A DNA stretch of 64,000 nt from Odiellus spinosus (lineage: Eukaryota; Arthropoda; Arachnida; Opiliones; Phalangiidae). The notes under the pieces were generated by a model, which had not been told where the DNA came from, searched no databases, and was given only the letters and a program-made list of their open reading frames with translations. The first letter of the stretch is position 1; every line of letters begins with the position of its first letter. The DNA lies in assembly GCA_963920705.1 (NCBI GenBank), contig OY987237.1:16088601-16152600 (forward strand). Reading direction: 5' to 3'. Position numbers and translations under genes: made by a program. Below, in pieces: positions 15,178 through 55,849 of this stretch.

Positions 15178-15239
15178 TCCTAAGTATAGATTAAATCATA
15201 ACTAAAACAATTGAAAAGTGTTCTTTTTTAAACACAGAC

Positions 15240-18507: not shown

Positions 18508-20091
18508 TCACCCATCGTATTCCACCAGACCCTTCTTCAAAATTATATTACCATACTTGCTCTTTTCACTAGAAAAATCACGGTTTACGTAAATTATTCC
18601 AGGGAAATTAAATTCTCAACTTTATATCAAAAGTTAATTCCATAAAAAGTAAACAACGCCCCGTAAATATTCCGTCAGATTCTGATTTGAGATACTCTAG
18701 CGGCCGGGAAGAAATTCCACCAGAGTTGGGAAGCGCGGCCCGCCTAAATTCCAACACTTCCTCTTCCCCCCGACTTAAAATATCGCGCTGAAGAAGTCAA
18801 ACCACTCGAGGCAGTCGGTGGCTAGTAGTTTACAAGCCCCTTTCATGATAGCATTAAGATATGAGGCGTCGTTTACTTTTATGGAATGAAGTCATAGACT
18901 TCTGATAAAAATTTAAACGGATGTTATAGGGCTTTGAAATTGTGATTATTACCCGGTGTGAACAATGGCGTAACATTTAGCGGCTTCCTCGTAAAATTCG
19001 AATCTTTCGACTTCGGCAAATCGAACCTGTAATTGGCAAATTCAATAATCATCTACTTAATTAATTTTACAGTGATCTTTGTAAATTATTTCAGGGTGCG
19101 GACGGAAACCAGTCGATATAGACGAACTTTTGTTAAAAAATGAATAACCAACAACAGGGGCAGTATAGTCTCCATGATTTTAAACAAATTGATCTTACGG
19201 TCTGTTTTTCGGCATCATTGATAATTTTCCTATACGTTTCCCATACTTCCGGTTCGCTGGCTTGGTCATCCTTGTCCCTTTGAGCCAATTCCATCACTTT
19301 GACCGGCGTGAAGCAGTACTTGTCCAACGGAAGCAACGCGAGGATTGCTTTCAACAAATCAGGGATGCTTAAACCTAATCAAAATTTATAAAATGGATAA
19401 ACAGGGGCTCAAGTTCTAAAGCTTGGTTCAGTCGGGGGGGATATAAATAAATTTCGATTCTTCGGGAGTAATTAGGAAAACTATTTGGGTTAATTAGGAC
19501 CAGGGTGACTACCAAAAAAGATTTTTGGTCAAATCGGCACGAAGCTCGTCGAATTACGATTGACCAATTGGTAAATAGCAGAGGTATATAATAACCCCCT
19601 TCGGGGGGAAGTATGAAAGCCCCTATACTACCAATGCTAAAAATGACGAACAACAAGAGCCCGCCGCTGACTATCTAGGCCACTATCTCGCGCTGGACTT
19701 CTCAATGTCGCTACTCTAGTAAATGGTCTTTGTATAAACAAGACGGCTCGATTTGTGTTTAGAACTTCCGGTCTCGGGAGTCAGGCTGTCTGTTAAAATG
19801 GAGTCGAAGGTTGACTTCGGCTCGCGAGTTCCGGAAGCGCGCGTAGGGAAAATTTAGTGAGGTTCAAAATGGTGTAACTATTTTTTGGGAGTAAAGCGGT
19901 GTGTCGATCCGCCGCGATTTACGCCGGGCACTCGTTGTTCGTCGATTTTGCCTACCTTTCATACTTCCCCCGAAGGGGTTTATTATATACCTCTGTAAAT
20001 AGTGATAGAAAATGCGTACCGTCAGCTCGGATTTCAACAGCGTGTCCTTTTTTACAGAGACCACTTGTTGGAAAATGAATATCAGCTAAAA
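18508..20091 (-). CDS. FUOM: Fucose mutarotase, exons 2-5 (residues 28-154)
   Basis: Fucose mutarotase (FucU/RbsD family) interconverts alpha- and beta-L-fucose, feeding the salvage pathway to GDP-fucose. Exons in transcript order are 20020-20091, 19199-19374, 18953-19026 and 18508-18568, ending in TGA; every junction is GT-AG and in phase. Together with exon 1 (51344-51425) they total 465 nt, or 154 aa, equal to the human protein length. Blocks include VLADIHFPTS, AVEIRADG, LLKAILALLPLDKY, VMELAQRDK, VERFEFYEEA, AIVHTGE and YGNIILKKG; Y140 and N142 match the Tyr/Asn pair used for sugar binding in the family. Exon 2 starts with TT and needs a preceding G, which exon 1 supplies. The intron at 19375-20019 holds a hAT-like MITE and the one at 18569-18952 a family A MITE. 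Confidence 0.93.
18619..18910. mobile_element. MITE family A copy in FUOM intron 4
   Basis: AAAAGTAAACAACGCCCCGT at the left and GGCGTCGTTTACTTTTATGG at the right are inverted repeats, with the internal word GCGCGGCCCGCCTAAATT. It makes up most of the 384-bp intron. Confidence 0.65.
19579..19994. mobile_element. hAT-like MITE with 8-bp target duplication, copy 1
   Basis: It is 416 bp long. The left end reads CAGAGGTATATAATAACCCC and the right end GGGTTTATTATATACCTCT, giving terminal inverted repeats of nearly 40 bp. GTAAATAG occurs directly before (19571-19578) and after (19995-20002), an 8-bp duplication as made by hAT transposases. It is almost identical to the copy at 28194-28610. The open frame at 19864-20064 runs from the adjoining exon into the element and is not a gene. 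Confidence 0.85.
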
Positions 20092-20194
20092 CTGAAACGA
20101 CAAAAAATATATAATAATGAGCTCGGGAAATAAAATAAATCTGACAAATTTTGATTTAAAAAGGCGCTTTAAAATTTGCCAATTTAAAATTATC

Positions 20195-20300
20195 TTCCTT
20201 TAAGCACGCAGCCTAGCTTTGACTGTTATGGTCAACGTCGTCTGCTAGCAAAAAAAGAAGTTGGCTATAAAAATCCGGATTGCCCCTTTAAATTTATGAC
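20195..20300. repeat. AGACGACGTTGT-family fragment
   Basis: CACGCAGCCTAGCTTTGACT followed by CAACGTCGTCTGCTAG, in the orientation opposite to the copy at 1-110. Confidence 0.5.
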
Positions 20301-20329
20301 ATTAAGGTCAAACTAGTAATAATCTCGTC

Positions 20330-20460
20330 AATACTACGTCATCATGGCACTATGGTCACGTGATTTTTCTATTGTAGAGCCTACAGATGATTCATCACGA
20401 GTGATAAAGTCGTTTTCGCGCGGTCTCTTTCGTAAAAGTACTTGATCCAGATCCCATAAA
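20330..20460. repeat. Dispersed repeat with TATGGTCACGTGATTT core, copy 1
   Basis: TACGTCATCATGG, TATGGTCACGTGATTTTTCT, TTTTCGCGCGGTC and GTAAAAGTACTT occur in the same order at about 37395-37515. No terminal repeats were defined. Confidence 0.5.
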
Positions 20461-22617
20461 TAAATTACGTCATATATTTTAACAAAAATGGTATACATAT
20501 TTTTAAAAATTTTAATTTTAAAGTCCTTATTTCACATGTCAAGCCAGAGTTATAAAATTTTTAATTTGACATATTAATTCTATGATAAAACAACCATAAA
20601 AATAAATTATATCAAAGAACAACTTCACTTTAAATAATTTTGGCATCCATATAACCAATTTAAAACTATGTTTGGTTTTCAAGGTTTATTAAATTGAATA
20701 AAGTCCGTAGTAATATGACTCGTATTCCTAGAAATGTCCAGTCAAGAAGTTAAACAAAAAAATGACCAAGGAAAGGATGAGATGTCAGCTCTCGAAATCA
20801 CGGTTTCGCCTTAAAAATTTATGTACTTTTTCGGAGATTTTTTCTTTACAACTTTTTTTTGTTTTTGTTTTGTTTTGTTTGTTTTGGGCAACAGCCGCTT
20901 TTACTAGGAAATTTTGGAGAACTTCGCGAGTATCTAGCGAGTAAAGTTTATACAGATCGACTCTAAAGATTTTAAAAGATTAAAAACTAGACATCTTGAC
21001 GCGTCATTTTGAAATACAAAATAATTTAAGACGGGGAGCATTTGTTTTCACAGATTTCGGGAAATTTACGAACATATTTTAGGTATGGAGTATGGAATAT
21101 CTTATTTACAGACGTATTTTTTAGGTCTCCGTACTTTTCATTCTATTGTAATTTTGCAAACCAAAAAAATATAAACAAAATCTGTTGTTTAAGATAAAAC
21201 ATTAAACAAATTCTAAGAAAATCGGTTAAAAATTTATAATATCAAGTATAGTATAAATCGCGGTAATGGTAATTCGCTTCATTACCGCGATTTACTCTGG
21301 TTAAATTACCAAAATGCAACACGTCACTTAGGCCACATGATGTAGGCCCATGTTTTAAATTGTTTTCATTTTATTAAGCCCCTAATTCTTGACCTTTGGA
21401 TTGACGCGTATTTAAGACGGTTAAAAAGTCAAAAATATTTAATCTCGAGTTAGGTTTTACGTCTTTGTTATATATTATTATTAATTTTTCTAAAGAAGGA
21501 GAAAGGATTACGGGGCTTCGATGTTGTTCGTTAGAATGGGATTAGTGTGGGAGGTTAAGGATTAAACCGGATTATTACCAAGAATATTAGAAGTTACAAC
21601 ACTAAAGATTAATTTATTTTTCTAAGAAAGAACTATGAATCTTGTTAAAGCGCTGTATAAAGGTTAATCTTTCATTTTCATAAATTCTTCATATATTATT
21701 AGTATGGTAACTGAAGTAATTTTTAAAAATTAGACTAAAAAATGTATCAAATACGAACAAATGTATTTCATGATGGTGTCGAATCTCGATACAGATCTCT
21801 CATTACGATTCCTACGCCCACATCATTAATATTACGAGGCGGCTTCCTTAATTTAAAGACAAAGAAACTTTCAGTCTTAAAGGGAGACAGACGACAAAAT
21901 GAATTTCCAGATTTTCGCGCCATTTTTATCTCGCGCCAAAATTGTAGACTGTAGTTCTATATGTTTCGAGAAAAGCGCGCGAATTTCTGCGCGCGCCATT
22001 CTCGATTACGAAAGCGCGGGAAAAATCTCGCGATTTTAAAAGATTTTAAACTTGTGGTTAAGCCTAAATTTGAAATTTATATTTTGTTGTCATTGTTATG
22101 GCTATAAAACCAGTTTTAAACGTACTAAAACTATAATTAATTACATTTTGATTTGTTTTATCTATCTTTTGAGGATAAAAACTGTTTATATTTGTATTTA
22201 ACAGCGTGTTAACCTTTAATATATATTAAAAGAGATGACCTAACTATTATGGCCTCTTCACCCTCGCAAATTGTTGGAAAAAAAAAAAAACGATTAAGGC
22301 CGCGCGATGAAAGAAAAGGAAACGCGTTTAAAAGGAAGGGCAGACACGAGATTAGAAAAAAAAAAAAACATTAAGAACAGCGCACCGACGAGAAAAAGAA
22401 GCTGATTGGGTGTCAACTGAAAGGATGATCTCACATCCGTATACTCCCGCGGTGGGTCCTCTAAAAACAAACCACATTGCTATCATATCCAGCAGGCTGC
22501 AAAACATGACGTATTTCTATGGTTTTTAATTATCAGATTGAGAAATATACATTTTAGGCAAAGAACGCGTTCATTTGTTCGAAGTGACATTCAACCGAAA
22601 CGAACGAAAATTTAAAA

Positions 22618-22910
22618 CCCGGAAAATAGGCTTAGCTAGATTCATGGAGATCCTGAATTTCTACAAACTAAAGGGTCATCGACCAATGACAAAGGCCCGT
22701 CGTTAAGCCTAATATCTCTATAAAACGTCCAATAACATTCGATTGTTCTCTGACCCTTTAACGCTAAGAAATTCAGCTGATATTTATGAATCGAGCTAAG
22801 CCTATTTTCCGGGTAGTTTATAATTTGTCCGTAAATTTTGTTTACCGTTGGATTAGGCCTATTTAAAGGATAATTCACCCGTTGTTAGGTTGCATTCTCC
22901 ATTTAATTAA
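22618..22910. mobile_element. MITE family B copy
   Basis: AAATAGGCTTAGCTAGATTC at the left is mirrored by GAATCGAGCTAAGCCTATTT. The right portion carries TTAGGCCTATTTAAAGGATA and GTTGTTAGGTTGCATTCTCC, the family right end. The open frame of 78 codons here is not a gene. Confidence 0.6.
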
Positions 22911-23454
22911 TTAACATTAAAAAAAAATTATGAAGCCGAAATTTGCATCCGGGTGTATTCAAAACCCCCAATTATTAAATAAAACCTTAGAACACCGTCC
23001 GGTCTCAACACCCACTATATTAAAGATGATATTTACCCAAAATAGAGACGTAAAAACAAGACGGGTCGCACGCCACCTTAGTTACGCAACTTGATCACAT
23101 TTTCGGGGTTAAAGTTTAAGTTCTTAATTAAAAACATGAATGAAGTTAAGTTTTTCGAGTGAAATTTCGCTCGTTTAGTTGTTTTTGCGGTTGATTTGAA
23201 TCTAAAAATCTGGGTTTTACAAATAAATCTAGGGTTAGTAGGGATAATCACGCGAAAAGCATGGTGTTATTTAACAACAATTTTGTCCCTTGTCTGCTAC
23301 GGGTACAAAATGTTAGAATTGGGACAACCTGACTTAATTAAGGGTTTCATGATAATTTATTATTAATCATACTCAAAATACGCGGAGAAACTGAATTTTT
23401 AGGCGAATATTTTCAGCCGAAAATAATTATTTAATTACTATGGTAATCATTCCT

Positions 23455-23545
23455 TCGACCTGTACTGAAATGTTTGATTTCCCTGACCTTTTTTGGGCTT
23501 ATTTTTAAATTCCCTGACTTTTACGGGCTTTCTAGGTCGTGAACG
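23455..23545. repeat. Degenerate family D fragment
   Basis: TTCCCTGACCTTTTTTGGGC and AAATTCCCTGACTTTTACGG precede GTCGTGAACGACCCC, resembling a decayed right end of the CAGGGTT...AACCCTG family. Confidence 0.45.
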
Positions 23546-23808
23546 ACCCCATGGCTGCTTTTGAGAACTTAAGCGCGAACGCTTAAGAGACAAGAAACTA
23601 GTTTCGCGTAACTAAAAAGAAGAGCATCAAGAGGAAAGTTTTTTCACACGACTTATCATCGTGTGTGTTCGAAGGAGCAAGTTTTATCTTCATCCATCGA
23701 AATGCTCCTAGAAATATATTTATTTTCTTCCCTATAAAGATTTTTAACGACGAAAGCCGCCTTCGCGAACGAGCAGAGAACTTTTCGCTGTCTAATACAT
23801 TGCTATCA

Positions 23809-24104
23809 AAAGTCAATGATATTATTCCTTAGAAGTAAACAACTCTGTCATCAACCCCGTCTGCCTAGAGTGGTTTAGACTATAGCTCGATATTTTGAGT
23901 CGGAATTTAGGCGGGCCGCGCTTGCCTATCTCATCTTTCTTCCCAATTCCTGTATTTGTCCGTGAAGAGTGTCACTTCCTCCGTTCACTTATTTACACTA
24001 GCGACCCCTAGAGTGTCTCGAATCTTGCAGAATTAGGACCTTTACTGATAGTATAAGCTACGAGATGTTTACTTTTAAAGAATAAAACGATGGACTTTTG
24101 TTGG
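23809..24104. mobile_element. MITE family A copy
   Basis: ATCAAAAGTCAATGATATTA then AGAAGTAAACAACTC at the left, and GATGTTTACTTTTAAAGAAT then GATGGACTTTTGTT at the right, with GGCGGGCCGCGCTTG inside. Confidence 0.6.
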
Positions 24105-24427
24105 TAGATAAGTACCAGCTCTCCCCTCCTTCGCGAATGGGGTTTAGGAAGTAGGCGGAAAAATCTGAAAGATCTAGACTGGTTTATAACTCTTTTGGCA
24201 ACAAAGAGAGGCGCCGACAGATCACAGTCTGGGTTCTTAACAGCACCAACGCCCTCAACCTCTTACAAAAGATATTTCAAAGTAGATCAAAATTACTTGA
24301 CGTTTACGATTCATTATTCGGGCGTATACGGGAAGGATCTCACTTAATCGTAAGAAGGAATGAAATGGATCCTTCTAGGTTCTACGCATGCGCATTATGT
24401 TAAGACATTACAATCTTTGAACTAAAA

Positions 24428-24785
24428 CAGGGTTGCCACAGTTTTTTTCAGATTCAAATTCCCTGACTTTTCCACGTTTTTCCCTGACCTTTTTCAATTA
24501 TTTTCCCTGACCGTTTCAACTAATACTAACCAATTTTTAAGCTTTTATTTTTTATATAATCGCGTTCGCCAAACTTTGTTGCAGGCGTGTCTTTGTTCTA
24601 ATCTATACAACTGACACGCCGTCAGCTGAGAATCTTTTCCGCGGATAATGATTGCAATTTCCTGGCTTCTCGAAAGATCTTTAAATTCCCTGACTTTTTA
24701 AAATATCTCAAAATTCCCTGACTTTTTTGGTTCATTTTCAAATTCCCTGACTTTTCCCTGTTTTCCCTGACCTGTGTCAACCCTG
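24428..24785. mobile_element. CAGGGTT...AACCCTG element (family D)
   Basis: It starts CAGGGTTGCCACAG and ends TCAACCCTG, with several TTCCCTGACTTTTCC words at both sides. It is close in layout and length to the copy at 3546-3903. Confidence 0.6.
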
Positions 24786-26974
24786 CTTTAAAATAATTTT
24801 CAAGAAACGACTGTTTATCACAAAACCTAAAACCTTTTCCTTCCAGCTTAAAGTAAAGGCGCTAAATGGCAGAGCTTAATTTCTCCTCTATTGCTCCAAA
24901 TTCACCGAAAATAAATCGTGAAAATTGCACACCAGGAAACTGTCTATTTTCCTTACACAATAACTGACATCAGAGCGAAATTATTCAAAATATTTTTGTA
25001 GTAAAAAAACAATTAACTCTCCCACTATTACACGCGTATACGCGCGGTATTTTGGGTTTCCCCATGACGTCGATAACTCTATTGTAATGCCCGTAAAGAT
25101 TCCATCAATATAAAATGGGTTATTTTATTTTACTGTATTTAGAATGAATAAAGATTATAGACACGACCTTTACGCAAATTCTAATGACTATTAAATTAAA
25201 ATATTTACTTTATATACGCAAGATTTCGATTAAAATTATTTTTCATTATCTTCCGTTATTCGTATATTTTCAGATGTTTTATTTTCGGATAAATTTAAAT
25301 GTAACTAAAAAATTTGTATATTCGTATAATTTTTAAATGGTTTACCCGAAGATAAGCGTTTGGCGCTTTATCTATCTACAAATTATTCGTATTCAAACGT
25401 ATAACGATGGATAAGAAACATTCGCGTTTCCAGAATTAGTCGAAAATATAAGAAAAAATTTCCAAATTGACTTTTAATTCGAAGAATAGAAATAAAACGA
25501 TAAGATTTTAAATCATCTTTTTATTCGTTATTTTTCACGAAAATAAATTTTGAATTAAATTTTTATCCGAACGTATAACGCGTCGGATAATATTCTAAGA
25601 TAAGTTGCCATTTTTGGATAAAAACGGATATGGATTACGTTTTTTTACTTTATCTTGGAATAAGTTAACTCGAATTAAAAATAAGTTTATTTTTAATCAG
25701 ATAATATACATCAGAATTTAGTAGATTTTATCCAATTAATAAAATTATACGAATTCCGAGCTCTAGAGATGTACACATTTTTTTTAATTGGTAGGCCAAT
25801 ATTTATTCAAGGAAGCGAACAATTTAACATAGCTAAGACACGCGCCAATTAAAAATTAGTAGAGATTTTGTTAATTGAATAAGATCATCGTGAATGTCAA
25901 TCAAACTGTTATCCGCGTATATATTTCAATACAAAATATATGGAAGGTTCCCCAATTTCACTTAATTTGTTACAGTTTTCAACAAACCCGGATTTTTAAA
26001 GAAACATCGTCACTAAGCCTCGTCTAACGAGCGTAAAACTAGCGAAGAAATACTATAAAATTCCAATTTATCGCCGTGTCAAGAAAAATATACAGCCGAG
26101 AAGAAAAAAAAATTCCCACGGTTTTCATTCATCCACTTCATCCTTCACTTTATAGAGGCTCGACCCCCAAGTTGTTTAGGAACCTTTGTCGGCTACCGCG
26201 CTGGCATTCCACGAATAACTACCCGAGTTTTATCAGGACGGGTGCGCCTTAGATCTCCTCCTGGTACCCTACCTACCACGCACTCCGAGAATGCCAGTTT
26301 CAGAATGAAAATTGTATTTAAAATTGATAGTTTTTTACGCTTATTTGGGGGCCCGCTTATTACTGGACGATGCCTCTATTCGAAACGTCTGATTAGAAGA
26401 ACTAAAGTCTCATCTCGAATTTAAAGTCACTGTGTCACATTTTTTTTTATTTTATTTTTTTTCCCCAAGGACCTAAGGTCCGTTCGGATAAAGGTTGCGG
26501 GCAATTTATAATTCCTATAAAATCCTACGAATTCATTTAATTTCGCAGTTTGTTTTTGCTGGCGAAGGACCCTTCGTATGTTTATGGTGAGTGGCGATTT
26601 ACACGCTTCAAGCTTGATTGAGATGTCGCGGGGGCGTTGGATTCTTTAACTTGTTTATTCTTCAACGCTTTACATTTGAAGAGGAGTCTTTTAGGGATAT
26701 CGGGTTTCGGCAATACATTTCAATTATAGGCCTATCACCCGTATTTAGGGTACTGTATAAGGACCATGTCTTTATCGCCTATATACATTATAGCGGAAAG
26801 ATTGAGATAGCTTCGGTGTATTATAGGTATTTGTTTAAAATCGAATTTTGTTCGGATTTATTTATAGATGTTTAAATATTTAGAGTAAGTAGATAATAAT
26901 TTTATGAACTTCCAAACGTCTTTCCCTTTTATAGGCGAAGCAAAGACTAAATTCCTCGAAATTTACGGTCAATT

Positions 26975-27415
26975 TCCAAATTCCCCGACTATTCCCTGAC
27001 CTTTTGGGCTCATTTTCAATTTCCATGACCTTAATAGTCAATTTCCCTGACTATATAGTCCATTTTCATGACCTTAAGGGCCAATTTTCAAATTTTCCGA
27101 CTATTCCCTGACCTTTTGGGCAAATTTCGAAATTCCCCGACTATTCCCTGACCTTTTTTGCTCATTTTCAATTTCCCTGACCTCATGAGTCAATTTCCAT
27201 GATCTTACGAGTCAATTTCCATAACCTTATGGGTCAATTTCCAAATTCCCAAATTCCCCGACTATTCCCTGACCTTTTGGGTAAATTTCACAATTTTCCG
27301 ACTTGTCCCTGACCTTTTGGGCTCATTTTCAATTTCCCTGACCTTATGAGTCAATTTCCCTGATCATATGGATCAATTTCCAAATTCCCTGACCTTATGG
27401 GTCGTATACAAACCC
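26975..27415. repeat. Degenerate tandem array of the TTCCCTGACC motif
   Basis: Units of roughly 30 bp vary around CAATTTCCAAATTCCCCGAC, TATTCCCTGACCTTTTGGG and CTCATTTTCAATTTCCCTGA. They resemble the family D minisatellite core but are much more diverged. Confidence 0.65.
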
Positions 27416-28034
27416 AGAGGGAGTAACATATTTAGTTTGCGCTTCGAGATGGTCAGCAAAATTATATAACAATTAAAATTTCTATTTTATGGACAGTCTA
27501 AGCGCATCCACACATCGGCGTCTGATAAAAGTAAACGGTCAGAGACCCCTTTGCCCCGCTGACATTACGGTAAATCTTTCGAGTCCCTGTAGTAAATTTT
27601 AAAGCCCCCAAAAGTCATTCATAAATGCCATTGAGGGATCGGCGATGTCGGTCCAATCACTAAGAAAAGTCGGCACTGGCCATCGGAATGGAAAATCTAC
27701 TTAAGACATTTTGTAAACCTTTTTGCTAGACGCTATTTTTGCGCGATAACGCCAACATAAAGACGACCCGAGTTGGTAGTCGTGTCGAGGAGTGAAGGGC
27801 CATATTTAGCTCCCCTCGTGGATGGGAAAATCAATCACTGGCCCTCCAATTCTCATGGGTCGGAAATGTTGACAAGGGAATGAACCAAACCCCGCTGATT
27901 ATCCAAACAAGGTACGCGTTGTACTTTGCATTCGTTGCCACCTTAACTTGAAAAAGAGATTGAGAGGAACCTAGGAGGGGAAGGAATTGGACGTAGAGCG
28001 CGTCTTCATTGCTGAATTCAAATGGGCAGTAATA

Positions 28035-28185
28035 CCCTTTTCAAACGAGGCGTAACTAGCCGGTTTAATCAGATTTAACCGAGGTTTAATCACAATTAAC
28101 CGAGGTTAATTGAACTGTGAAGACTATGTAAACCTAGGTTAAATCTGATTAAACCACGGCTAAATAAGCCTCGTCTGAAGAGCTA
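28035..28185. mobile_element. Small palindromic element, GGTTTAATCAGATTTAACC type
   Basis: ACGAGGCGTAACTAGCCGGT and TTAATCAGATTTAACC are mirrored by GGTTAAATCTGATTAAACCA and GGCTAAATAAGCCTCGTC. A related half is at about 48655-48730. Confidence 0.55.
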
Positions 28186-28193
28186 GGTATTAG

Positions 28194-28610
28194 CAGAAGT
28201 ATATAATAACCCCCTTCGGGGGGAAGTATGAAAGCCCCTATACTACCAATGCTAAAAATCACGAACAACGAGAGCCCGCTGCTGACTATCTAGGCCACTA
28301 GCTCGCGCTGGACTTCTCAATGTCGCTACTCTAGTAAATGGTCTTTGTATAAACAAGACGGCTCGATTTGTGTTTAGAACTTCCTGTCTCGGGAGTCAGG
28401 CTGTCTGTTAAAATGGAGTCGAAGGTTGACTTCGGCTCGCGAGTTCCGGAAGCGCGCGTAGGGAAAATTTAGTGAGGTTCAAAATGGTGTAACTATTTTT
28501 TGGGAGTAAAGCGGTGTGTCGATCCGCCGCGATTTACGCCGGGCACTCGTTGTTCGTCGATTTTGCCTACCTTTCATACTTCCCCCCGAAGGGAGTTATT
28601 ATATACCTCT
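28194..28610. mobile_element. hAT-like MITE with 8-bp target duplication, copy 2
   Basis: It is 417 bp long and nearly identical to 19579-19994. It is flanked by GGTATTAG on both sides (28186-28193 and 28611-28618). The ends are CAGAAGTATATAATAACCCC and GGGAGTTATTATATACCTCT. It lies in FUOM intron 1. Confidence 0.85.
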
Positions 28611-30519
28611 GGTATTAGCCACAAAATTTCCATTTATACGCGCGAAAATAAATCCAAAAGCTCCTAGTTTCCCTTTAACTGATCTACAGTCCATGTTTTT
28701 TATCTCGCCTCTGAATACGCCAAAAAAACGTGAAAACGCGCCTACAGCACCAGCCTATAAGTAAGAAATTACGCTAGCCCACCTCCCCTAACCAAAAAAA
28801 AAAAAAAAATTAATCTCCTTTAAAAGCGTAACACTGACAGGTTTTAAAAGATTCGGAAAATGAGATCTTCATTCGCGAATCGCGAGGTTAGAATCAGAAA
28901 AATATATCCACCAACTCTTGTGAAGTGACCGCCCGCTTCGAAAAAGAATTTTTCGATACGATCTCACGATGATGGGTCAAAGAGGTCAATATCACGGTGG
29001 TCGGACAGTTTTTTCTTCATTTTCATCTTTGATTTTTTTTCCTTCGACGCTAACAATTATCAGAGCCGCCTGGTGAGGAATTCGAGTACCCTCGAGCCAT
29101 TTCGGAAATCGAGATTTTTTTTACGATCTTTGCTCTAAATCGAGCTCGCTCTTATACTAACAAGAAGACCACCCTTTGGGTTAAGATATTTCAGAGTCTA
29201 ATAAACAATGTAGTAAATGACAGAGCGGTCTACAACGTCTCTCTCCCTCTTTATTATCTAGGGTACGACCTCCTAACTCGGTACACTTTTTGAAAAGTGG
29301 TATTTTAGATCTTAAGCCTATTCTTTATTCCACCAAAATCCACAAAATTCGATTTTCTAAATTCGCCTAAATTTGAATATTTGGAAGGTGGGCTAATTAG
29401 CGTCGTAACTTCGACAAATATTTTTTTTATAATATCGAAGTTATTTTTACCGAATAGTCCAATATTTAATCTACAAAATGAGCCCGACTAACCTTAATTC
29501 GAGCCAATCAAACTAAAGTTACGAATTTTTAAAGAAAAGTGTACCAAGTTAGAAGTATGTACCAAGTTAGGGGCTCCAAGCGTATGTTTGCCTACATAAT
29601 TATGTATAAGGGAACATTGGGATGGCTTTATACGACCGGTTTTCCACATAATATGTTCGTGAACCTTTAATTTAGGTCTACGCGATGAAAAATGGTTTAA
29701 ATATGGATGAGTTTTTAGGTTTTCGGGAGATATTCATAGGTAAAAGTCGGTGTTTACGCGTAATACACGCTTATCTTGATAACTGAGGCATTACAGTCAG
29801 TTTCGGCGCCTTGTTCATACGAATGAGGCACTCATTAATGATCTTCCAATATTTACATTCATTTACATATTTTTGACGTAGAAATATCATTTAAAATGTT
29901 AAATTAAAGTTTAAATTTATAATGTAAAGGGTTAATGAAATGATCTGGATGCTTTTACGGAGCAGACAACTAAGACTAACCTTTGACATAATCCTTTTCT
30001 ATCATATTTAGGCATAGGAGATGGTTAAAAAATAAAATTTGGTATTTTTCTTAGGTTTTTCGATAACGTAGATTCGGAAAAACGTAAAATTAAGAAAGTG
30101 ATACGTTTCATTTACCCTTTAAAGGGCAAAAATAAATTCAAAAACCTATTGAAATTGATGTAATATGGCTTAAAAACTCGCGTACAAATATTATACTAAT
30201 TTCTCAAAGAATTATTAACACGAAAAGTTAATTTAAAGATTCAAAATGCTTTAAAAATAGTGTGAACGCAGCTTCTTAGAGCTCCCGTTACATAATGGAT
30301 GGCGTGACGGTCGCGGTTATAACAAAAATATCATAGAGTTTCGAGTATATCTAAGACTACGAAATATCACGCGGAATTGTGGGTTCCTCTCTAAGATAGG
30401 TTACGTTCATGATTCGAAGTTTAGTTGGAATAAAAATAAACTAATTAAAAGTGTACAGAATCATAAAATTAAATATTATACTTCAATTACTTATGACGCT
30501 TATCTACTATTTATCTTTA

Positions 30520-30690
30520 TAAATCGTTTATCATAGCTTCGTCTATCGGTTGTTGAAACTTCCGAATCTGTACGAAACTGGTTCCCGAAGCAATTTCGAC
30601 AAATTCAATCAAATCGATTCGTAAATAGACGGTTTTCCGTTCACACGACTCTAGAAAAACGTTTAAATCGATTCCAAGGTATATTATGAA
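30520..30690 (-). repeat. GTTCATACTAGGCCTTGGAA family (family E) copy, reverse orientation
   Basis: TACGAAACTGGTTCCCGAAG, AATCAAATCGATTCGT and AAACGTTTAAATCGATTCCA are the reverse complement of the family seen at 45645-45890, 47630-47830, 49360-49560 and 63622-64000. The open frame at 30517-30846 largely reflects it. Confidence 0.6.
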
Positions 30691-34345: not shown

Positions 34346-34367
34346 TACGGTACCAATAATAGTTAAT

Positions 34368-39536: not shown

Positions 39537-41089
39537 TTAAAGGGTTTCATTCCCTCTTTAACAAAGCGTAACCTATTTGTAGAGCAAGGTCCAATTTTAT
39601 TGTACCAAGGCCAAAACATGTAATAGTTTAAATTATTCAGATCCGAGTCTTTAACTTTATCGAGTTTGAATGGACGAAGCCCGTGGAAATAAAAGTCGGT
39701 CGATAAAAAAGCAATTTTTTAGCCAGCATTCAACCACCCGTGAATTATATTGTAAACGGTGCCTTTCCGAGAGATAATCCGCGGGTGCCAGATTAAATAC
39801 GAGCGACTCTTAAAATAAAATGATTAAGGGCGCTACCCTTAAATTGTAATAATTATCATCAGAAACAAATAATGAACAAGAAACTCTGGAGCTGGGTCTA
39901 AAGAAATTTGTTGGATTAGGAGCTCTTAATCCGTTGTTATCTGTTTCGAGTATCAGATAATGCGCAAATAAGTTGTTTATGTAAATAACTTTCTAAAGAA
40001 GTATATTTTAGTCAGATAAAAAAAATCAATTTATCCGATATAACCAGTTTTATCTGTTGACAGATCTTTTGTCACAAGTACCTCTGCAAAGAGCAGTAAA
40101 ATATACACTAAGGACCCGAAAATTGCTTAAATTGTCCCCTTGGAGAGAATTGAAAAAAAAAAAATTGGTTTTTTCTCTAAAAATAAAAAAGACACGTTGA
40201 TTTTAACCGGTTTAGATAGACCAATTAAAACCACCTGTATATTAAAACTTATAAAGCGCCAGAAACATTGTAATCATTATGTATTTTTCGATAGGGATAA
40301 GCAAATAAATAATATTATCAACGTATAATAATTTACAATATCCTCGCGCGTGTATGTAAAGGTGCAATAGGTTGGGCTTCACCCCGCACACCGGAGCGCG
40401 AAGGTTGGAACACTTTTACAGGCGCTTAACTAATTTATATTATTGACGCTATCATCCAGTGACTTTTCACGTTTTTTTTGCTAATTATTATTATTATTAC
40501 AATTTCAAAGTGCTAAGAGTTAGTGTTTATACGTGTCGCTTGTTAAGGCACCCTAAAAATAGCGAATCTAACTATAGTACCAAACCATATATCGACTTTT
40601 TTATTTTTTTTGACCGATGTTTGGGCAGCTGGCGGAAACTATAGATTCCTGGTTATGACTGACTATAAGAAAATTCTCTATAAAATATTCCAACGGTATA
40701 TAATTATAAGCGTATGTTATGGATTATTTCGTGGCTCTGTCGTCGACAATGCCGTACAATACCTTTAGAGGCGAGTTCGCGAAAAACAAATTACTATAAT
40801 TTAGGGACAAATTAGGGACGATAATCTTAGTTTGACAAAGAAAAACTATTTGCTAGAAAAATTAAAATATTAAAAATGATATCGAGAAATGATATTAAAA
40901 GGGTTAAAACCGATTCGTGTAGTTTTTTTTTTACCGTTTTTAGAAGTTTAGTAAAGGTTTTTTTATCTTAAACACTCGTTTAAATTTCGTTACAGTGATT
41001 TCTCGTCCAATCAGCGGTCGCGTTAAAAGACAACGTATTTAGTATAGAAATTAATAAATTTCCAAGACTTTTTTAAATTTCAATTTCTG

Positions 41090-41335
41090 CAATTTAAAAA
41101 TTTGGCTTAGCTCAAATAAGGCAATTTATTTCTATTAAATTTCAAATTTAGGCTTAGCGCAAATGATGCCATTACTACAATTTCAAAATTAGGCTTAGCG
41201 CAAATGAGGCCATTTCTACAATTTCAAAATTAGGCTTAGCGTAATTATAAGGCCATATCTATAACTTTAAAATTAGGCCTAGCGCAAATGAGGTCATTTC
41301 TACAATTTTAAAATTAGGCTTAGCGCAAAATCCTG
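41090..41335. repeat. Tandem array, ~43-bp TTAGGCTTAGCGCAAATGAG unit
   Basis: About five units of AAAATTAGGCTTAGCGCAAA plus TGAGGCCATTTCTACAATTT. Units differ by a few bases each. Confidence 0.7.
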
Positions 41336-42344
41336 GTTATTACACAAACTGGACCTTTAAAATCTTCGCGATGTCGAGAAACAATCTCATCCATTCTCTT
41401 TTCAAAAACATATCGAGGGATAGACTCTAGCATCTGATTGGTTACCTTTCATTCCCTCATGGCCCACCAGAGACGCGAATATTACAATGAGACGGTAATG
41501 TTTGAACTATGACGCGATTAGAGGGTAAATTACGGCACTCGCCCTTACAAACCTTCCATTATTTTGGCAGTTCGCCCTATTCTATATAAGTATTAAGTAA
41601 ATACTTCAAGGGGATGATGCTATCTTCATAAACACACGCCTAAGATATCTCCGGAGGTAAAGTGTTTTGAAAGCGTCTGATGAATGGACATTAGGATCCA
41701 TTGTCTGTAAATATAAGTTATATTTCGTCTACACCTAATGATAAACAATACAACGAGAAACTAACCCAACCCGACAAAGTTGACGATATTAGAAATCCAT
41801 AAACATAAACCGGCCCATAGATTGTGTTTTTCCTCAAGGTCTTAGCGGAAAAAAAGGGAAGTCTTCGAGCGTGGAAAAAGGGTAGAAATAAACTACACGA
41901 AGAGGGGATAATATCGCGTAAGCAACTTCCAAGTCAAACAAGATGGTTTCAGTTGGGTTTCACGCTTGTTTCGCGACGTCACAACTTGTTTTCAAGGACA
42001 AATGAAGAACCATTGAATAAACTAACCCCTTGGAACGGCCGATTGAATAGTCGAACCGTATTGACATCGTCTTCTCTATTTTTCGGTCGAACCAAAAGTG
42101 TTAACTGCGCATTGTTGGTGCGCAGTCACGTGACGTTGCGACATCCCGTACGCGTCTTTATCAGGTCAAATTACAAGGGGCTAAATTATAAAAATTGGGC
42201 ACTCTTCCATTTTGGTTCTTTCATGGAAGGGCGTGGCCAAAGTTACCAGTTGCGTGAAAGTGGCGCATGTCATCTAATAATCCCTAATCCATGATTTTAA
42301 GCCTTGTTCTTCCTTTGTTATAACACCTTAAAATCATTTTCCCT

Positions 42345-42450
42345 TATACGAACACAGCCTAGATTTAACTGTACAATGTCTTACGTTCAACTAACAAGTT
42401 CTGCTAAGCTAGAAAAGATGGCGACTTTAAAGGGGCTTTAAAAATCGTGG
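42345..42450. repeat. AGACGACGTTGT-family fragment
   Basis: CACAGCCTAGATTTAACTGT, then TCTGCTAAGCTAGAAAAGAT and GGCGACTTTAAAGGGGCTTT, in the orientation of the copy at 16255. Confidence 0.5.
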
Positions 42451-44784
42451 TTATTCCATTTACGTAACTTCTCTCTGACGAACGAAGCGTATTTATTGGC
42501 TCTAGACCGCTACCTCTTGACAATGGACATGCGCGTGATCGCTATAGCGACTCAAAAACTAGTTTGGCGTAACTAAAAAGATGAAGTTAAAAAAAAATTG
42601 CGTCTGTAAGCGTGCCGGGTACTACGTAATAAGTCTTTGAAAGGAGACTCCGGCATTCGCGTGATTATACCGGGTATGGCGTGTAAGGGAGGGTCGCTAT
42701 GATATCGTTCCCCCCTTTCCCTAGCCTTTTCGCGACTCCTCCCAGCATAGAGAAACTTCCCAGGGGAAAATAAAACGCGATTTTTCCGAGTAACGGAGAG
42801 ACGACACTCCGAAACAGTCCACCCTGTCCTGTTCGCGAGAATTTTGGACCTTTTCTTCATCTAGAACTTTGAAAAAGTTAACAAATTAACTAATATCGAT
42901 TATTACGAAGAGAAATAAAAATAAATCTACTAAAGCTTCTTAATCGTCGATTAGCAGCGTGAGTATGTTTTGCGATTCTAAGCTTTTAAATGGGATTAGA
43001 GCCGCGGCTACCTTTTTAAAGAGCTTAGTATATAAGCGTACGATTACGTGTCGGAGACTCTCATTCAATAACAAATAACATTCACGGGTGGCGAAAACGA
43101 CCCCATTTCCGAGTCTTGTAATATTTTAAAACGCGAACGAAAAGTCATAAGCTTAATTTAGAATTAATTTTGATTAAAATGGTGTATTAGAATTAATAAT
43201 TTCAATCTAAAACATCTAAGGTTTGGTCTGATCGAAATTATTTAAAGGAATTAGATGGAAGAGTTTCCGGTTTCATATACGGAAGTAAAATTATTTTAAA
43301 ATTAAGTTTTAATTAGGAAACATTTTGTACCTTGAAATTTTATATTGTTTGGTTATTTATATTAAAATATAAAATAATCCTTTTTATTATAGAGTTATTT
43401 TTAAAATCTAGGTCACATTTGGTTTTTTCCATAAAGTCTAAAAAACATAATATCGAAACGAGATATTCCCATAGGATCTAAGATATATCATTTAAATGAT
43501 TGTGTTTAAGTAAATTTTGAACGATACCCGATATCAATTAAGTTTAAATGGTATTAAGTTTTAAATGAGTAAGAAATAAAACTTGCAGGAAAATATTTCC
43601 GGTAGATTCTATACAGAGAAATAATGTTTCGCTAGCTTAGAGAACAACTTCTTTGCTAAAAACACTTAATCTTAATTAAATTTAGTACTTAAATTAAATA
43701 AATTTATAGAATACGATGTTTTTATAATTTAATTTCACTTAGAAATTAACAAACGCGGTTAAATAAACTTCTTTCAACGCATTTTTCAAAAATATTAATT
43801 TAAAAAGCTTCCAATAATTAAAAAAACTGCGAGCGAATTTAATGTTAATTAGTATTAAATATTAAATTTAAAATATTTAACAATAATTAAATATTAATAT
43901 TTCAGGCAGGTAATTAAACGAAAACTAAAAATGCTTTTGAACTTATTTTCATAATTTTTTCATAATTATTAAATTAATTAATTTAAAGTTAAGTAAAATT
44001 TGAATAAAAGTAGATATAAATTTCGACCAATCATATTTCAGCCTTCAAAAGCGCTTATAATATATTGTCTCATCATTAAAAGGCCGATATTTGATGACCA
44101 AGATCTTGGGTATCAAAAGCCGGCGTATTCTTTTAATGTTAAGACATTACAAGGCCCTGATTGGTCCGTTTTTTGGCGGATATTCAAAATTTCATTTTTA
44201 GCTCCAAGTTTTATTTTTAATTCTTAAGATTCAAGCTGCTGTTTGAAAGAGGTCAGAATCAAAAGTGTCGAGAAACATCGGCGGGTCTGGCTTTTTAAAG
44301 AGTGTAAATACAGGAGGGGGGTCGAGGGCTTTACCCTTTCCTAGAATCTCCTCCGTCAAATGTAATAATCTATTACAATCCCGAGAAAAAAGGCCCAGGA
44401 ATATTCTAATTGTTTCCATAATTTGACATCTCAAAATAAAAAAAGAGAGAGAGAAAGCGAAAGGTAATACTTGGAAAAAACCTCATATCTCCCCCCTCTT
44501 GAGTCTTGACTTTCATTAACCCCGATTGAGTTCGCTTTTTTTTTAAGTTACATCGCTAAGATTAGAAAATGAGATATCATTTATATCTCTTCGCAAACAC
44601 TACTTGCCATCAATATAAGATTTAACATCGTTTATTAATCCGCGTTATGTTTGGATATAGTTTGCTAACATTTAAGTGTGTTAACCATATCGCGAACGAG
44701 GTCGAAGGAGCATCTAAAACCTAGATCAAGACTCTGTTTTCTTCTTAATTTCAAAATAATTTTTATGGCAAATTAATTAGGCTT

Positions 44785-45205
44785 AATTGCTAATTGAAAT
44801 TAGGCTTAATCGAGGTTTGAAATTAGGCTTAATCGAGGTTTGAAATTAGGCTTAATATACGTTTGAAATTAGGCGTAATCGATGTTTGAAATTAGGCGTA
44901 ATCGACGTTTGAAATTAGGTTTAATCGACGTTTCAAATTAGGCTTAATCGACGTTTCAAATTAGGCTTAATCGAGGTTTGAAATTAGGCTTAATCGAGGT
45001 TTGAAATTAGGCTTAATCGAGGTTTGAAATTAGGCTTAATCAAGGTTTGAAATTAGGCTTAATCAAGGTTTGAAATTAGGCTTAATCAAGGTTTGAAATT
45101 AGGCGTAATCGATGTTTGAAATTAGGCTTAATCGAGGTTTGAAATTAGGCTTAATCGAGGTTTGAAATTAGGCTTAATCGACGTTTGAAATTAGGCTTAA
45201 TCGCG
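44785..45205. repeat. Tandem array, 23-bp GAAATTAGGCTTAATCGAGG unit
   Basis: About 18 units of GAAATTAGGCTTAATCGAGG plus TTT. Sub-variants (TCGACG, TCAAGG, GCGTAATCGATG) are clustered, suggesting local duplication in blocks. Confidence 0.85.
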
Positions 45206-45644
45206 TACTTATATATAATTGATTAGAAGCCCTTTACTAGCTTGCCCACGTGGTGAAACTACCCCTTTACGAGCCTAGTCCATGCCACAAGGTAAAAATT
45301 ATAATTAATTGTAAAAGGGGGGCGTACGAAAAGAGTGGTAAAGGTACGACTAGATTGGATTGCTTTCCCCGGCGTATTTTGGCCCCTTTCCTTGTTGGAT
45401 GTTGTCAAAAAGGCTCCCAATGTGGGAAGATACGCTAATTTGTCTTGACGCGAGCAGCGCGGGGCCGAGCAGACGCCTATTTACCTGGAATCCCAATTAT
45501 GGAATCGAAGTTTACACCCCCATTTTTTTTTCTTAAATAATAGAAAAACAGCCGGAATTTTTACCAGATTAGGTTCTTTATAATTAAAGGGAGAGTGAAG
45601 AAGAATATTAATTGCCTTTTTAATCGATTCTACAAATAAAACTA

Positions 45645-45893
45645 AAGCCGCGTTCATACTAGGCCTTGGAATCGATTTAAACCGATTCAGAATGTTTCGA
45701 TTTCTCGAAACTGCTTCGGGAACCAGTTTCGTACCGATTTGGTTTCAACATCCGATAGATAAAGCTACGATAAATCGATTTATGAAGATAAAGCGTGAAC
45801 GCGTGACGCTTACAACGATTCCTCGCGATTCAAATATCGGTTTGATTTTACATTTTCAAATCGATTTGGAACTTCTAGCGTGACCGTAGCTTA
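45645..45893 (+). repeat. Family E copy
   Basis: GCGTTCATACTAGGCCTTGG, then AATCGATTTAAACCGATTC, GCTTCGGGAACCAGTTTCGT and AAATCGATTT. The 63-codon open frame at 45692 lies within it. Confidence 0.6.
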
Positions 45894-46977
45894 AAATTCA
45901 TTCGCTTGGATTAAAACATTCTGGAAATGAAAATATTCTGATTTTGGTATTGAATGAAAAGGAGAACCTCCGACCAATCAAAACACTCCCGTTATACCTT
46001 GCGCTAGAAACGCCCTATTGCGAATCAAAAATTAGATTCAAAGAGTGTATGCCTCAGCGCGTGTCGCGGGAATTTTATTAAGGAAAAGGTACAACCCTGG
46101 CGTCTTTTGATTGGTTCCAGGTTCTCATTTTAATTCAATGCTAAAAATCATAATTTTTTGTACAATTCAGAGACACTGAAATACGTCTAATTTTAAGAAT
46201 CAACATTAATTCTATTAATTTTCTTGTTCATCCTATCTTTAAGGGTGCAACGAACAAACGTTTAACTAGAAATCGCAGTTTCACAAAATATTTCGAAGGT
46301 TTTTCAAAAGAAATTTCGCGGTATTCGAATATCAGTTACAAAATTATATTTTTTGAATTTTTAAGCCGTTTTACGTGGAATTAAGAGATTAAAAAAGTTG
46401 GGAAATAGGGTATACTCCTAACATTGATACTATGATGACCCCAAAGATGGAAAATTAACCTATCGGAAAATATTAAATGGGAATTTTACTGGTGATTTAA
46501 AGTTTCAAATTTTCAGGAATAAAAATAATTTTATATAAATTTATTCAAACTTGGTTTTTAATCGTTCGCTGTTAATTTACCGGTTAAATTAATCGATATT
46601 TGGTAATTTGCGGTTATTTTAATGGTAAAATAATTGCATTTCAATATCGTCCAATCAATTTCCGAGCCTAATTAAAAATTAATTTATTTGGACCATTACT
46701 CAATTAAATATTCGATAAGTTATGGTTATTGTTTATTTTTAATTAAATAACTAAAATTAACTGGTAAGAGGATGTCCTTTTAATGACTCTTTAAAATCAC
46801 GTGACTAAAGACGAGTTTTCAATTAAGTTTTGTGTCATAAGTTCATATCTAAAGTAAATTTCTAGAGTCACCCTGTCCAGTCATTAGAGATACAGAGTTG
46901 ATTTTCAAAATAACCTTAACTACTTTTATTTTTTAATCACTTTTGGACAGCTCCATTAATGACCCGAAAAAATGTTT

Positions 46978-47364
46978 CCAGGGTGACCACTGAAAATCCT
47001 ATATAGGAAATTTCTTTGCGAAATATAGGAAAATATAGGAAGAATTTTATGTAAAATATATGATAAAATAGGAATATAATTAATTAAAAGTAGGAAGCAT
47101 GTTTATTATCGCGTCACAACTCTCGCCACCGGTTTAAACACGGTATTAATAAGATCCAATTGCTTAAATAGTATGGAATTTTACAGACTATTTTAACTGG
47201 AAAATGTACGGTTAAGCTAAAATAATCTTATACAGCCACGGCTGACAGGATGATTTAGAACTTTACCCTTAACTAGAGATTTTGAGTAGAAATATAGGAG
47301 ATTATAGGAATTGACATTAAATTATAGGAGAAAATAGGAAATATAGGAAAAGTGGTCATCCTGG
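46978..47364. mobile_element. TATAGG-rich element with CCAGGGTGACCACT ends
   Basis: CCAGGGTGACCACT at the left and AGTGGTCATCCTGG at the right are near-perfect inverted ends, with GTTT directly outside both (possible 4-bp duplication). The interior is rich in AAATATAGGAAAATATAGGA. Similar words occur near 50070-50210 and 56350-56570. Confidence 0.6.
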
Positions 47365-47629
47365 GTTTCATACATTTTTTTTTCGCTATTTTCTACCCTA
47401 AAAATTATTTAACTCGAAATTGTGTAGCCCAGATTTCCTGTTCGTTTTATAAGATGTCCAATGTTATTATATGAAGTGGCATACTTATAAGAATCCCGTT
47501 ATTTATGGTTAATATAATATTTCACGATGTTCACGAAGTTTGAAAGAAATTTACCCGAATTTTTAAAAACATCTGCATATTTTAAATTTTAAAAATTTGT
47601 ACCGGAAACGATTGTCCCGACTTTCGACT

Positions 47630-47830
47630 AAAGCCGCGTTCATACTAGGTCTTGGAATCGATTTGAAGTCGCGTGAACGGTAAATCGCCTCCTATCGAAT
47701 CGATAGAACTGCTTCGGGAACCAGTTTCGTACCGATTCAGTTTTAACAACCGATAAATGAAGCTACGATAAATCGATTCTTGGCGGCCGATTTTAAATAT
47801 CGGTTCGATTTTGCCGTTTAAGACCTTAGC
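47630..47830 (+). repeat. Family E copy
   Basis: AAGCCGCGTTCATACTAGGT, CTGCTTCGGGAACCAGTTTC and GAAGCTACGATAAATCGATT in the order of the other copies. Confidence 0.6.
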
Positions 47831-48296
47831 AGTTAGTTACGAACATTGTTTAACATTAATAAGATTAAAATTAGAAGTTTTGTACAATTCATCATTGATT
47901 TCCGAGAAATTGAGCGTTCTTCTGGCAGTGGTGTATAAGAATAATTTAAATCTATATTCGGGGCTGTACTCTTGTCGTGGGTAGCGAGTGGGAAAAAAAA
48001 TTACAGACAGAGATGCGGACTATAATTAAACCTAGAATTTGTGGATATTTTGGCGCCGTCCTTGAGCTTGCCACCATCTGCCTTGTCTATTTTTTCCCCA
48101 TGCAGCCGCGGGTTTATTCTATATAGGCGGAAATATTTCCAATGATTGACCAAGCGCTAAGATATTTAGAAAAACATGGGAATTTTTTTGTCTAACAGTA
48201 AAATAAACCCGTACAGGAAAAATTAAAAACTTTTCTGCTATTTAACTTCCGGTGTATCGGCGTATATGACAGAGAACTATACGCGCCGTTATAATC

Positions 48297-48480
48297 AACC
48301 TTGGAACCAGCAAAAAGAACCGTTAGAAAGCACCCGTTTCTATCGAAGATTTAGCCTTTTTGCAAGGTTGGATCAAAGTGTAGGATTATATGTACTTTAG
48401 CCAACCTTTAAACCAACAAAAAGAGACGTTAAATAGAACCATTTTGTTCTAAGATGTTGCCTTTTTTCAAGGTTGGGACG
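48297..48480. repeat. Dispersed AACCTTGGAACCAGC repeat, second copy
   Basis: AACCTTGGAACCAGCAAAAA, AGCACCCGTTTCTATCGAAG and TTTTTTCAAGGTTGGG parallel the segment at 3402-3545. Confidence 0.5.
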
Positions 48481-49359
48481 ACAAAGATCGAGAGAAACGG
48501 ACCTTGGGCAGTAACTTTTCAGTTTTGAGAAGGGGGGGTCACTGAACATTTGTCCAATAAGATGTCCAAATTTGTAAAGGGGGGGGGGGGCTAATCTTGG
48601 ATAGACCAATTGAAGGGTGCAAATGATTGTCTAAATATGGCGTCAGTAAAGTTTCTTCAGACGAGGCTTAGTTAACCGATCTTTAATTAAAGTTAATGGA
48701 GGTTTAATCTGATTAAACCGGTTGGCCAAAAACCAAAACAAATCAAGCTTCAAGTTGATCAGGCTTCGAGTGACTGAAAAAGCGGATTTCAATTGGTTAA
48801 AGCCGAAGCTTGAAAAACTTGATTACTCTGGCTTCCTACACTTTACGTACCACGCACCAATACACCCACCACTCATTATCCACCTTTAAAGTACCGCTGT
48901 TACCATTATTCAAGTTTTAAGGCACCTTTGAATCATATTTTTAAATATTTTCATACCCTTATAAAGTTCAACATTTTTGACGAAAAATCAGTGACAACTT
49001 GACTTTACAACTTCGAACTCCCACTAAACTCTAAACGTACCTAACAAAACCCGCGTTCAAATGACCAAAAAGTTATTTCTAACCCGGACCTAGAATCAAA
49101 AATACATTTTCAGTACTAGGCATAGCTAGCGCCCAGAAAACCCATTCATATTTTAAGAGATCTATGATTGAGGTTGATGCGATTGGTAAGAACTAAAATT
49201 CAAAGACAACAGACGACAGAATTACTCGGGTAAGAGACAGATCTTTCAAAACTATTGTCTAGAAGTAAATTATCCCGAAGTACCCAAGCGTAGTCTAGCG
49301 GGGGGCTAAAATATCCAACAAAAATAGCATTTTGATTCCAAAATAAAGGAACAGTAAAG

Positions 49360-49560
49360 TCGCGTTCATATTAGGCCTTGGAATCGATTTAAACCTTTTC
49401 AAAATATTTCGTTAGAGTCACGTGAACGGGAAACCCTCTTTTCTCCTATCGATTTGATTGGATTTCTCGAAACTGCTTCGGGAACCAGTTTCGTACCAAT
49501 TAGGTTCAACAATCGATTTCTGCACCTGCTTTGGGAACTAGTTACAAATCCTAAAAATTG
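49360..49560 (+). repeat. Family E copy
   Basis: CGCGTTCATATTAGGCCTTG, GAATCGATTTAAACC and CTGCTTCGGGAACCAGTTTC, then a partial second block. Confidence 0.55.
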
Positions 49561-51343
49561 GATTCAAATGAATTCTAAAATGGTGACAGCGTCACTTTGA
49601 AATTTTACGATATCAAAAACATCACGCGTCAGGTTAACTTGAAACTATTGATCGAGGAATGATAAAGCGACATCTACCCGGAAACAAATGGTTTTAAAAA
49701 AATCATAAGACCCGGGAGATTAGGTGGAGGATTAAACACTCCAAAGACTTCCTACATAATCCACTATAGTACAGTACTTTAGATTTTATCAAATCTTTCT
49801 GTTTTAAATTACACCTACGCCGATAATAAAATGCTCTTTATACCGCGTTTGATTTGATTCATTTTAAACAAGATCGTGACGTCATAGCATTGTCAATATC
49901 TTTGCGTTTGAATTCTAGCTAATATTTTGAGAATCAAGTTGTCAAACATTTCGTACAAAAATTAATTTTCAGTATATTTCCAAGTTTTTTGTTCAATTTT
50001 TAACCCAAGAGAGAGTGTAACCTATCAGAGTGATTTTTTATCGATTGCCAGGGTTTCAATTCGTCAATAGAATATTTATAGGAAAAATAGAATTCCTATG
50101 GCCAAATTTTAGGACTTTAAAGGACCTTTTTCTACGATATTATAGGATTATATAGGACACTTAGGATTTATTGGAATTATGGGACTGGCATAAATGTTAC
50201 GGTAAATTTGCATTTTAAAAGGCCTCATTTTGGCGGGAAAAAGAGCTTATATCTCTTACCACGGCGCTGACGTCACCTCCCTTAGCTCCTCCCCCAAACA
50301 ATAGCACCCTATATTAAATTTACAGATTAACCTAATCAGGTTTGTTTTTCCCCAACGATGCTGAATGTTAATGTTTGTTTACAAAATATACAAAACAGAA
50401 AACCACGTGTTTAGAGTCTTTGACTAAGCCTCGGCTTCCTAAACTTCTCACGAAGGTATTTACACGCGAACCCATTTGAAAGGTATAAAGGCCTTGATGG
50501 AACGACAGCACGACATTTCTACGAAAAATGTAGATGATCTTTCGATCAGTATCGCTCGCCTGTTGTCCATGCCAAATACAAAGGACACGAAAAATGCATT
50601 CCCAGTTAGAACAAAAGCTCAGGAAAAAAAAAAAAAGAGGGGGGCAGTGAAATTAGGTTAGTGTAGAATATAAATTATAGGCTTTTTCTTTTTGGGTGGA
50701 TTTAATGGTTTAGAAATACGGGCCCGGGAATTCCGAGAATTTACACACTATAGAATATATCAACAAGTATTCTCTTCACTCGATAGCTTTGAAAAATATT
50801 AAAATAAAATAAAATTGAGAAACGTATCATCTAAAAGGAATATTGGATTTAACCGGTGTCGCTTCCAGGGAAATTAAAGAAAAATTTCAAATTAAGCTTG
50901 ACAATTTATCCTAATTGTTTAAGACGTTGCGCGAAATTAACTTTGTCATTAGTAAAACGAGAGCTTTTTTTTTTAAACGTTGTCTCTTTTATATTATTAT
51001 TCTCACCTTTCTTAGAATCTTTAAATAGTCCCGGGCTTTCATTTTTAATTGCTAGGATGAGACATAACGCTAGTTACGAAATGAGAGTTAGTTTCGTTAC
51101 GGTTCGGGCTATTTAATTTGTACTCGGAATATATCTGGGCTTTGTTTAAACACGTGATTATTACAATAAATGTATTAGACATTTTAATTTGCTGAAACAA
51201 TTCTCCCCCTAACTACCACAGCCTCTGTTTCACTTATCAGTCCAACTGTTGCGTAACGAGATATTACGATACGAGTGACGAGGCTTAGCAATAAACGCTT
51301 TTTTATACATCATATAAGGTCAAAAAATGAAAAACAAACATAC

Positions 51344-51425
51344 CTATTTCATCTCCGTGTCCCATTGTAGCTAATGCGTGCAATAAATCTGGCGAAATAA
51401 CTGGAGAAATTCCTTTTAATCCCAT
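51344..51425 (-). CDS. FUOM: Fucose mutarotase exon 1 (residues 1-28)
   Basis: It encodes MGLKGISPVISPDLLHALAT followed by MGHGDEI and the first base of Val28, then a GTATGT donor. GHGDE carries the family His (H23) thought to take part in mutarotation. The animal proteins begin with a near-identical segment and continue VLAD, exactly what exon 2 at 20091 supplies in matching phase. The exon is 31.3 kb from its partner, with no other copy of either half seen in the window, so the simplest reading is one gene with one very long first intron. A trans-spliced or misjoined arrangement is the alternative. Confidence 0.85.
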
Positions 51426-52530: not shown

Positions 52531-52534
52531 TTAC

Positions 52535-55820: not shown

Positions 55821-55849
55821 AATGCTCCTATCTTCTCTGACATTTGACC

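Follow-up and report, generated by a model that had tools for sequence, protein, structure and literature searches.

A fucose mutarotase gene with a 31-kb first coding intron in Odiellus spinosus

Introduction

Longer first introns are a general trend among eukaryotic genes (excerpt of Bradnam and Korf, 2008, PMC2518113), and conserved regions of human first introns have been tied to regulatory signals (excerpt of PMC4085337). Here we describe the fucose mutarotase gene (FUOM) of the arachnid Odiellus spinosus, whose five exons lie in a 64,000-nucleotide stretch of assembly GCA_963920705.1 (contig OY987237.1; C15:16088601-16152600). This whole stretch is referred to as the window, and positions are counted from its first letter. 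A sequence-only reading of the window had joined exon 1 to four distant exons across a very long intron and had attributed the length of that intron to transposons. We find it very likely that FUOM is a single-copy, intact gene, that its intron 1 became long through neutral accumulation of DNA, and that it is spliced by the ordinary GT-AG route. A literature search pairing fucose mutarotase with insects returned nothing on gene structure in titles or the opening lines of abstracts.

Results

Five exons apparently make one intact gene

The gene model consists of the following features, all five exons of which were re-derived from the sequence.

51344..51425, minus strand: FUOM exon 1, 82 nt, residues 1-27 and the first base of codon 28
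20092..51343, minus strand: FUOM intron 1, exactly 31,252 bp, GT-AG, phase 1
20020..20091, minus strand: FUOM exon 2, 72 nt
19199..19374, minus strand: FUOM exon 3, 176 nt
18953..19026, minus strand: FUOM exon 4, 74 nt
18508..18568, minus strand: FUOM exon 5, 61 nt including the stop

Joined in phase, the five exons give 465 nt, or 154 codons and a stop. All four introns have a GT donor and an AG acceptor and keep the phase (GTATGT...TTTCAG, GTACGC...GATTAG, GTAAGA...TTACAG and GTAATA...TTCTAG, in order). Both the exact-phase join to 154 residues and the very long first coding intron, as claimed in the sequence-only reading, were thus recovered on re-derivation. Its further claim that the other introns of the window run from 60 to 1,200 bp is true of FUOM introns 2, 3 and 4 (645, 172 and 384 bp), the sole introns checked.

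The encoded protein matches the RbsD_FucU family (PF05025) over residues 4-149 with an E-value of 2.8e-41 and 141.6 bits (cut-off 25), covering 137 of the 138 profile positions (1-137). It is nearer to FucU/FUOM than to RbsD: the FUCU homologue of solved structure 2wcu aligns with residues 2-150, exon 1 residues included, at E 2.2e-46, and the L-fucose mutarotase 2wcv at E 3.3e-32, whereas RbsD (1ogc) reaches E 6.3e-4. Exon 1 has an ATG start and a GTATGT donor, the 2wcu alignment begins at query residue 2, and the sole match to this exon in the genome-wide protein search is 51344..51425 itself. Exon 1 also codes for the GHGDEI region, which aligns with 2wcu; therefore this exon, 31 kb away from the others, is needed for a complete FUOM domain. 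The histidine of the GHGDE region is presumably catalytic.

The sequence-only reading would have been undercut by a second gene copy or by an exon 1 nearer 20.1 kb. A protein search across the assembly (443 Mb in 286 contigs) returned six matches, five at the FUOM locus and one that is noise (E 2.9), and thus no other copy. Scanning the sense strand of intron 1 with a simple motif gave one chance match (GHG, 27030) and no nearer exon-1-like peptide. A translation start at exon 2 was considered and rejected, as the frame closes upstream at 20158 with no ATG before that point.

Two readings would separate exon 1 from the rest of the gene. Dispersed repeats in intron 1 are possible misjoin points, at which the assembly might have set exon 1 and exons 2-5 at the wrong distance on one contig. 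However, the exons share a contig and a strand and stand in the right order, the window contains no undetermined base (N), and the genome search places every FUOM exon at a single site, so we regard such a misassembly as highly improbable. The great distance of exon 1 from exons 2-5 could also mean that a rearrangement parted it from them and that the full protein is no longer made. This too we find barely credible, given five open, in-phase exons with GT-AG sites, strong family conservation that includes exon 1, and the lack of an in-frame ATG between exon 2 and the upstream stop. The five exons apparently make one single-copy, intact FUOM gene.

Intron 1 is long for an enzyme gene but not unique in the genome

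Intron 1 was compared with exon gaps in other genes of the assembly, taken from chained genome-search matches. These gaps are distances between profile-match ends rather than splice sites; in a few cases a small exon is missing in between, and the first matched exon is not necessarily the first of its gene. The sampling was partial and hand-selected, with pairing that favours near partners.

For CCT, 42 of 45 match rows gave 33 gaps with a median of 77 bp and a maximum of 2,195 bp. For P450, 37 of 110 rows gave 19 gaps (median 81 bp, maximum 515 bp), with at least four other close pairs omitted (255, 48, 66 and 36 bp). The Ras family contributed 35 first-exon gaps hand-picked from 143 rows, with a median of 237 bp and a maximum of 13,614 bp; two of them, at 7 and 34, fall below the length of real introns, and five Ras matches span almost all of the domain without a break, leaving no gap. 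Four N-terminal Ras matches with no assignable partner (C4:7211322, C2:23083832, C5:11960152 and C5:17942175) were dropped and could hide longer introns. FUOM intron 1 is longer than all 87 pooled gaps; their median is 123 bp, their 95th percentile 2,142 bp and the largest of them 13.6 kb.

Receptor genes were sampled through PF02931, for which 30 of 149 rows chained into classical nicotinic-type genes and 119 stayed unchained. Nine of the resulting 21 gaps exceed 3 kb and the two largest are 42.3 and 43.7 kb; the median of 1,621 bp is not representative. The 42.3-kb gap holds a 45-nt exon, in frame and with AG and GT borders, which its motif identifies as the third exon of the gene. This exon splits the gap into introns of 30,788 bp (C4:15010709-15041496) and 11,535 bp, the longer of which is presumably internal. 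The 43.7-kb gap may likewise hold a small exon. An intron of 31 kb is thus a rarity among enzyme genes of this genome, yet FUOM is not alone in having one, given the 30,788-bp receptor intron, and the view that intron 1 stands apart in size genome-wide is not supported.

The ligand-binding domain of Cys-loop receptors has at least 149 matches in the genome (150 of 187 candidates scored). Many are clustered outside the classical nicotinic-type genes, for example at C13:13002669-13066245, C12:10977388-11089976 and C2:6494072-6919546, and these clusters are a possible large lineage-specific expansion.

Repeat content of intron 1 resembles ordinary genomic DNA

Direct repeats, minisatellites and dispersed elements were all found, which bears out the earlier description of intron 1 as holding many interspersed repeats and arrays. 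The individual elements include miniature inverted-repeat transposable elements (MITEs) and are listed here, none with an assigned strand.

19579..19995: MITE with terminal inverted repeats, 417 bp, in FUOM intron 2; ends CAGAGGTATATAATAA; 7-bp duplication TAAATAG
28194..28611: MITE copy of the same family, in FUOM intron 1; 7-bp duplication GTATTAG
25244..25768: dispersed repeat (query 5153-5677); copies 87-93% identical among the matches listed
32365..33069: dispersed repeat (query 12274-12978); main copies 86-93% identical among the matches listed
38924..39540: dispersed element with 12-bp inverted ends and an internal 40-bp minisatellite
44775..45203: 23-bp minisatellite, 18.7 copies
34028..34343: 35-bp minisatellite, 9.1 copies

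Genome copies were sought with the two halves of the intron as queries, which gave 25,086 and 25,895 first-look candidates, 39 being scored for each half. Four elements stood out as the best of these, namely the MITE at 28194..28611 and the elements at 25244..25768, 32365..33069 and 38924..39540. The MITE in intron 2 shares 98% identity with 28191-28490 over 300 nt. Because each copy has its own 7-bp flanking duplication, both are real insertions. Genome copies of the intron 1 MITE (query 8093-8530) have 47-bp inverted ends and are 95-99% identical among the matches listed, which suggests that the family was recently active. The element at 38924..39540 has CAGGGTTCGTAC at 38929 and GTACGAACCCTG running to 39536, with TTAAA on either side. 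Its main genome copies are 83-95% identical among the matches listed, and several have extra array copies. The 40-bp unit is of the CCCTGACTTTTCC type and the element is related to an array at about 59165-60074; therefore part of the arrays are the contents of dispersed elements. Upstream of exon 1, a 29-bp minisatellite occupies 55158-55741 with 20.1 copies and a 99% match.

Repeat cover was measured as matches to a non-random 200-kb genome sample of 20 stretches of 10 kb, taken at round coordinates on contigs C1-C6 only; a sample of this size detects very abundant families, and most of those with fewer than roughly two thousand copies escape it. By this measure 15.3% of intron 1 is covered, in 27 segments. 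The 20 stretches themselves have a mean cover of 19.0% and a median of 9.5%, with four of them above intron 1, and the mean becomes 10.1% once two wholly covered, satellite-like stretches are excluded. Cover is 7.0% in the flank at 1-18507, 27.0% in that at 51426-64000 and 3.6% in the 30,788-bp receptor intron. Tandem arrays make up 7.6% of intron 1. Guanine plus cytosine account for 34.9% of the intron and 35.0% of the sample. Because its repeat cover lies within the spread of the sampled stretches, intron 1 looks like ordinary DNA of this genome, slightly above the median in repeats.

Alternatively, transposons might have expanded this intron in particular, with MITEs and minisatellite elements inserting in bursts. 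The presence of at least four multi-copy elements within intron 1 speaks for this, as do the 27 segments matching the sample, a cover exceeding that of 16 of the 20 stretches, and the 417-bp MITE with its 7-bp target duplication, which enlarged intron 2 too. However, the cover stays inside the spread of sampled genomic DNA, and the comparable receptor intron has far less. About 85% of intron 1 has no match in the sample, which misses most of the rarer families. We consider transposon-driven expansion possible but doubtful. The earlier claim that the content of intron 1 points specifically to such growth is not supported by a cover of 15.3% against a median of 9.5% with four stretches higher. 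Growth by rarer transposons may have escaped a sample that detects very abundant families.

Searches for function within intron 1

Intron 1 contains 198 open reading frames (ORFs) of 45 aa or more. No Pfam match over the cut-off was found in the 30 scanned, which were among the 38 longest; the eight omitted from these mostly overlap others or lie in tandem repeats, and 168 were left unscanned in all. Two weak matches fell below the cut-off, RuvA_C at 0.033, in a minisatellite ORF, and Pox_F15 at 0.012. No Rfam family and no tRNA was found in the window.

Recursive splicing of intron 1 was considered as well and rejected for want of a convincing ratchet point. The canonical motif AGGTRAG, the only form sought, occurs at a single sense-strand site in the 31,252 bases (51008), about 335 bp from exon 1, where the upstream sequence is 45% pyrimidine and thus no pyrimidine tract.

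Function could nonetheless keep the intron long, by way of enhancers, a nested non-coding RNA or a delay in transcript production. The regulatory signals tied to conserved regions of human first introns (excerpt of PMC4085337) lend this some weight, and intron 1 is an outlier for an enzyme gene. Against it stands the outcome of the Pfam (30 of 198 ORFs), Rfam and tRNA searches, and we think this explanation improbable.

Neighbouring features

At 17423-18271 (plus strand) there is an uninterrupted TBP-like frame with both TBP repeats (E 7e-38); it faces FUOM, and about 240 bp separate its end from the stop of that gene. The contig and strand of this frame also carry, about 156 kb off, a multi-exon TBP gene with a better score, and C3 has a third gene of TBP type. 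The frame resembles a diverged paralogue of TBP and may be a retrocopy. At 5649-10702 (minus strand) there is a long retrotransposon of the non-long-terminal-repeat type with two open frames; ORF1 has PHD matches just under the Pfam cut-offs, ORF2 has endonuclease and reverse transcriptase, and the element has no match in the 200-kb sample. An open frame at 12910-13524 (minus strand) holds part of a lipase maturation factor (LMF1) gene.

Discussion

In the explanation we favour, neutral DNA of ordinary genome composition (MITEs, minisatellite-bearing repeats and unique DNA) would have accumulated in intron 1 and not been removed, and ordinary GT-AG splicing would join exon 1 to exons 2-5, probably in a single step. 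We infer, rather than observe, that FUOM yields a spliced transcript and that intron 1 grew neutrally.

Three points weigh against this explanation. For a small enzyme gene, intron 1 is a genuine outlier, since the CCT and P450 gaps are at most 2.2 kb and those of Ras at most 13.6 kb. Its repeat cover exceeds both the sampled median and the values of 16 of the 20 stretches, a slight point in favour of transposons. Finally, the junction of 51344 with 20091, like the assembly around it, is unproven. That selection holds intron 1 at about 31 kb, through regulatory DNA, an unannotated non-coding RNA or a transcription delay, seems to us quite improbable; if true, a small metabolic gene would be behaving like a neural or developmental one.

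The finding is correct and ordinary, one more long first intron. An annotation pipeline that allows short introns only would miss exon 1, which encodes the conserved GHGDE region. A reader of raw sequence was able to join exons 31 kb apart correctly.

FUOM intron 1 shares its great length with the recursively spliced long introns of Drosophila (excerpt of PMC8605326) but differs from them in having no convincing ratchet point. The nicotinic-type (Cys-loop) receptor intron of 30,788 bp is nearly the same length, yet it belongs to a receptor gene and has a lower repeat cover (3.6% against 15.3%). In keeping with the general trend towards long first introns (excerpt of PMC2518113), the first coding intron of FUOM is far longer than introns 2-4; it departs from that trend in being extreme against the gaps sampled in this genome. 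With the eukaryotic FUOM/FUCU homologue (2wcu, PF05025), the protein shares a match over residues 2-150 of its 154 and an intact N-terminal GHGDEI, and its difference from known FUOM/FUCU seems confined to the layout of the gene, with its 31-kb intron 1.

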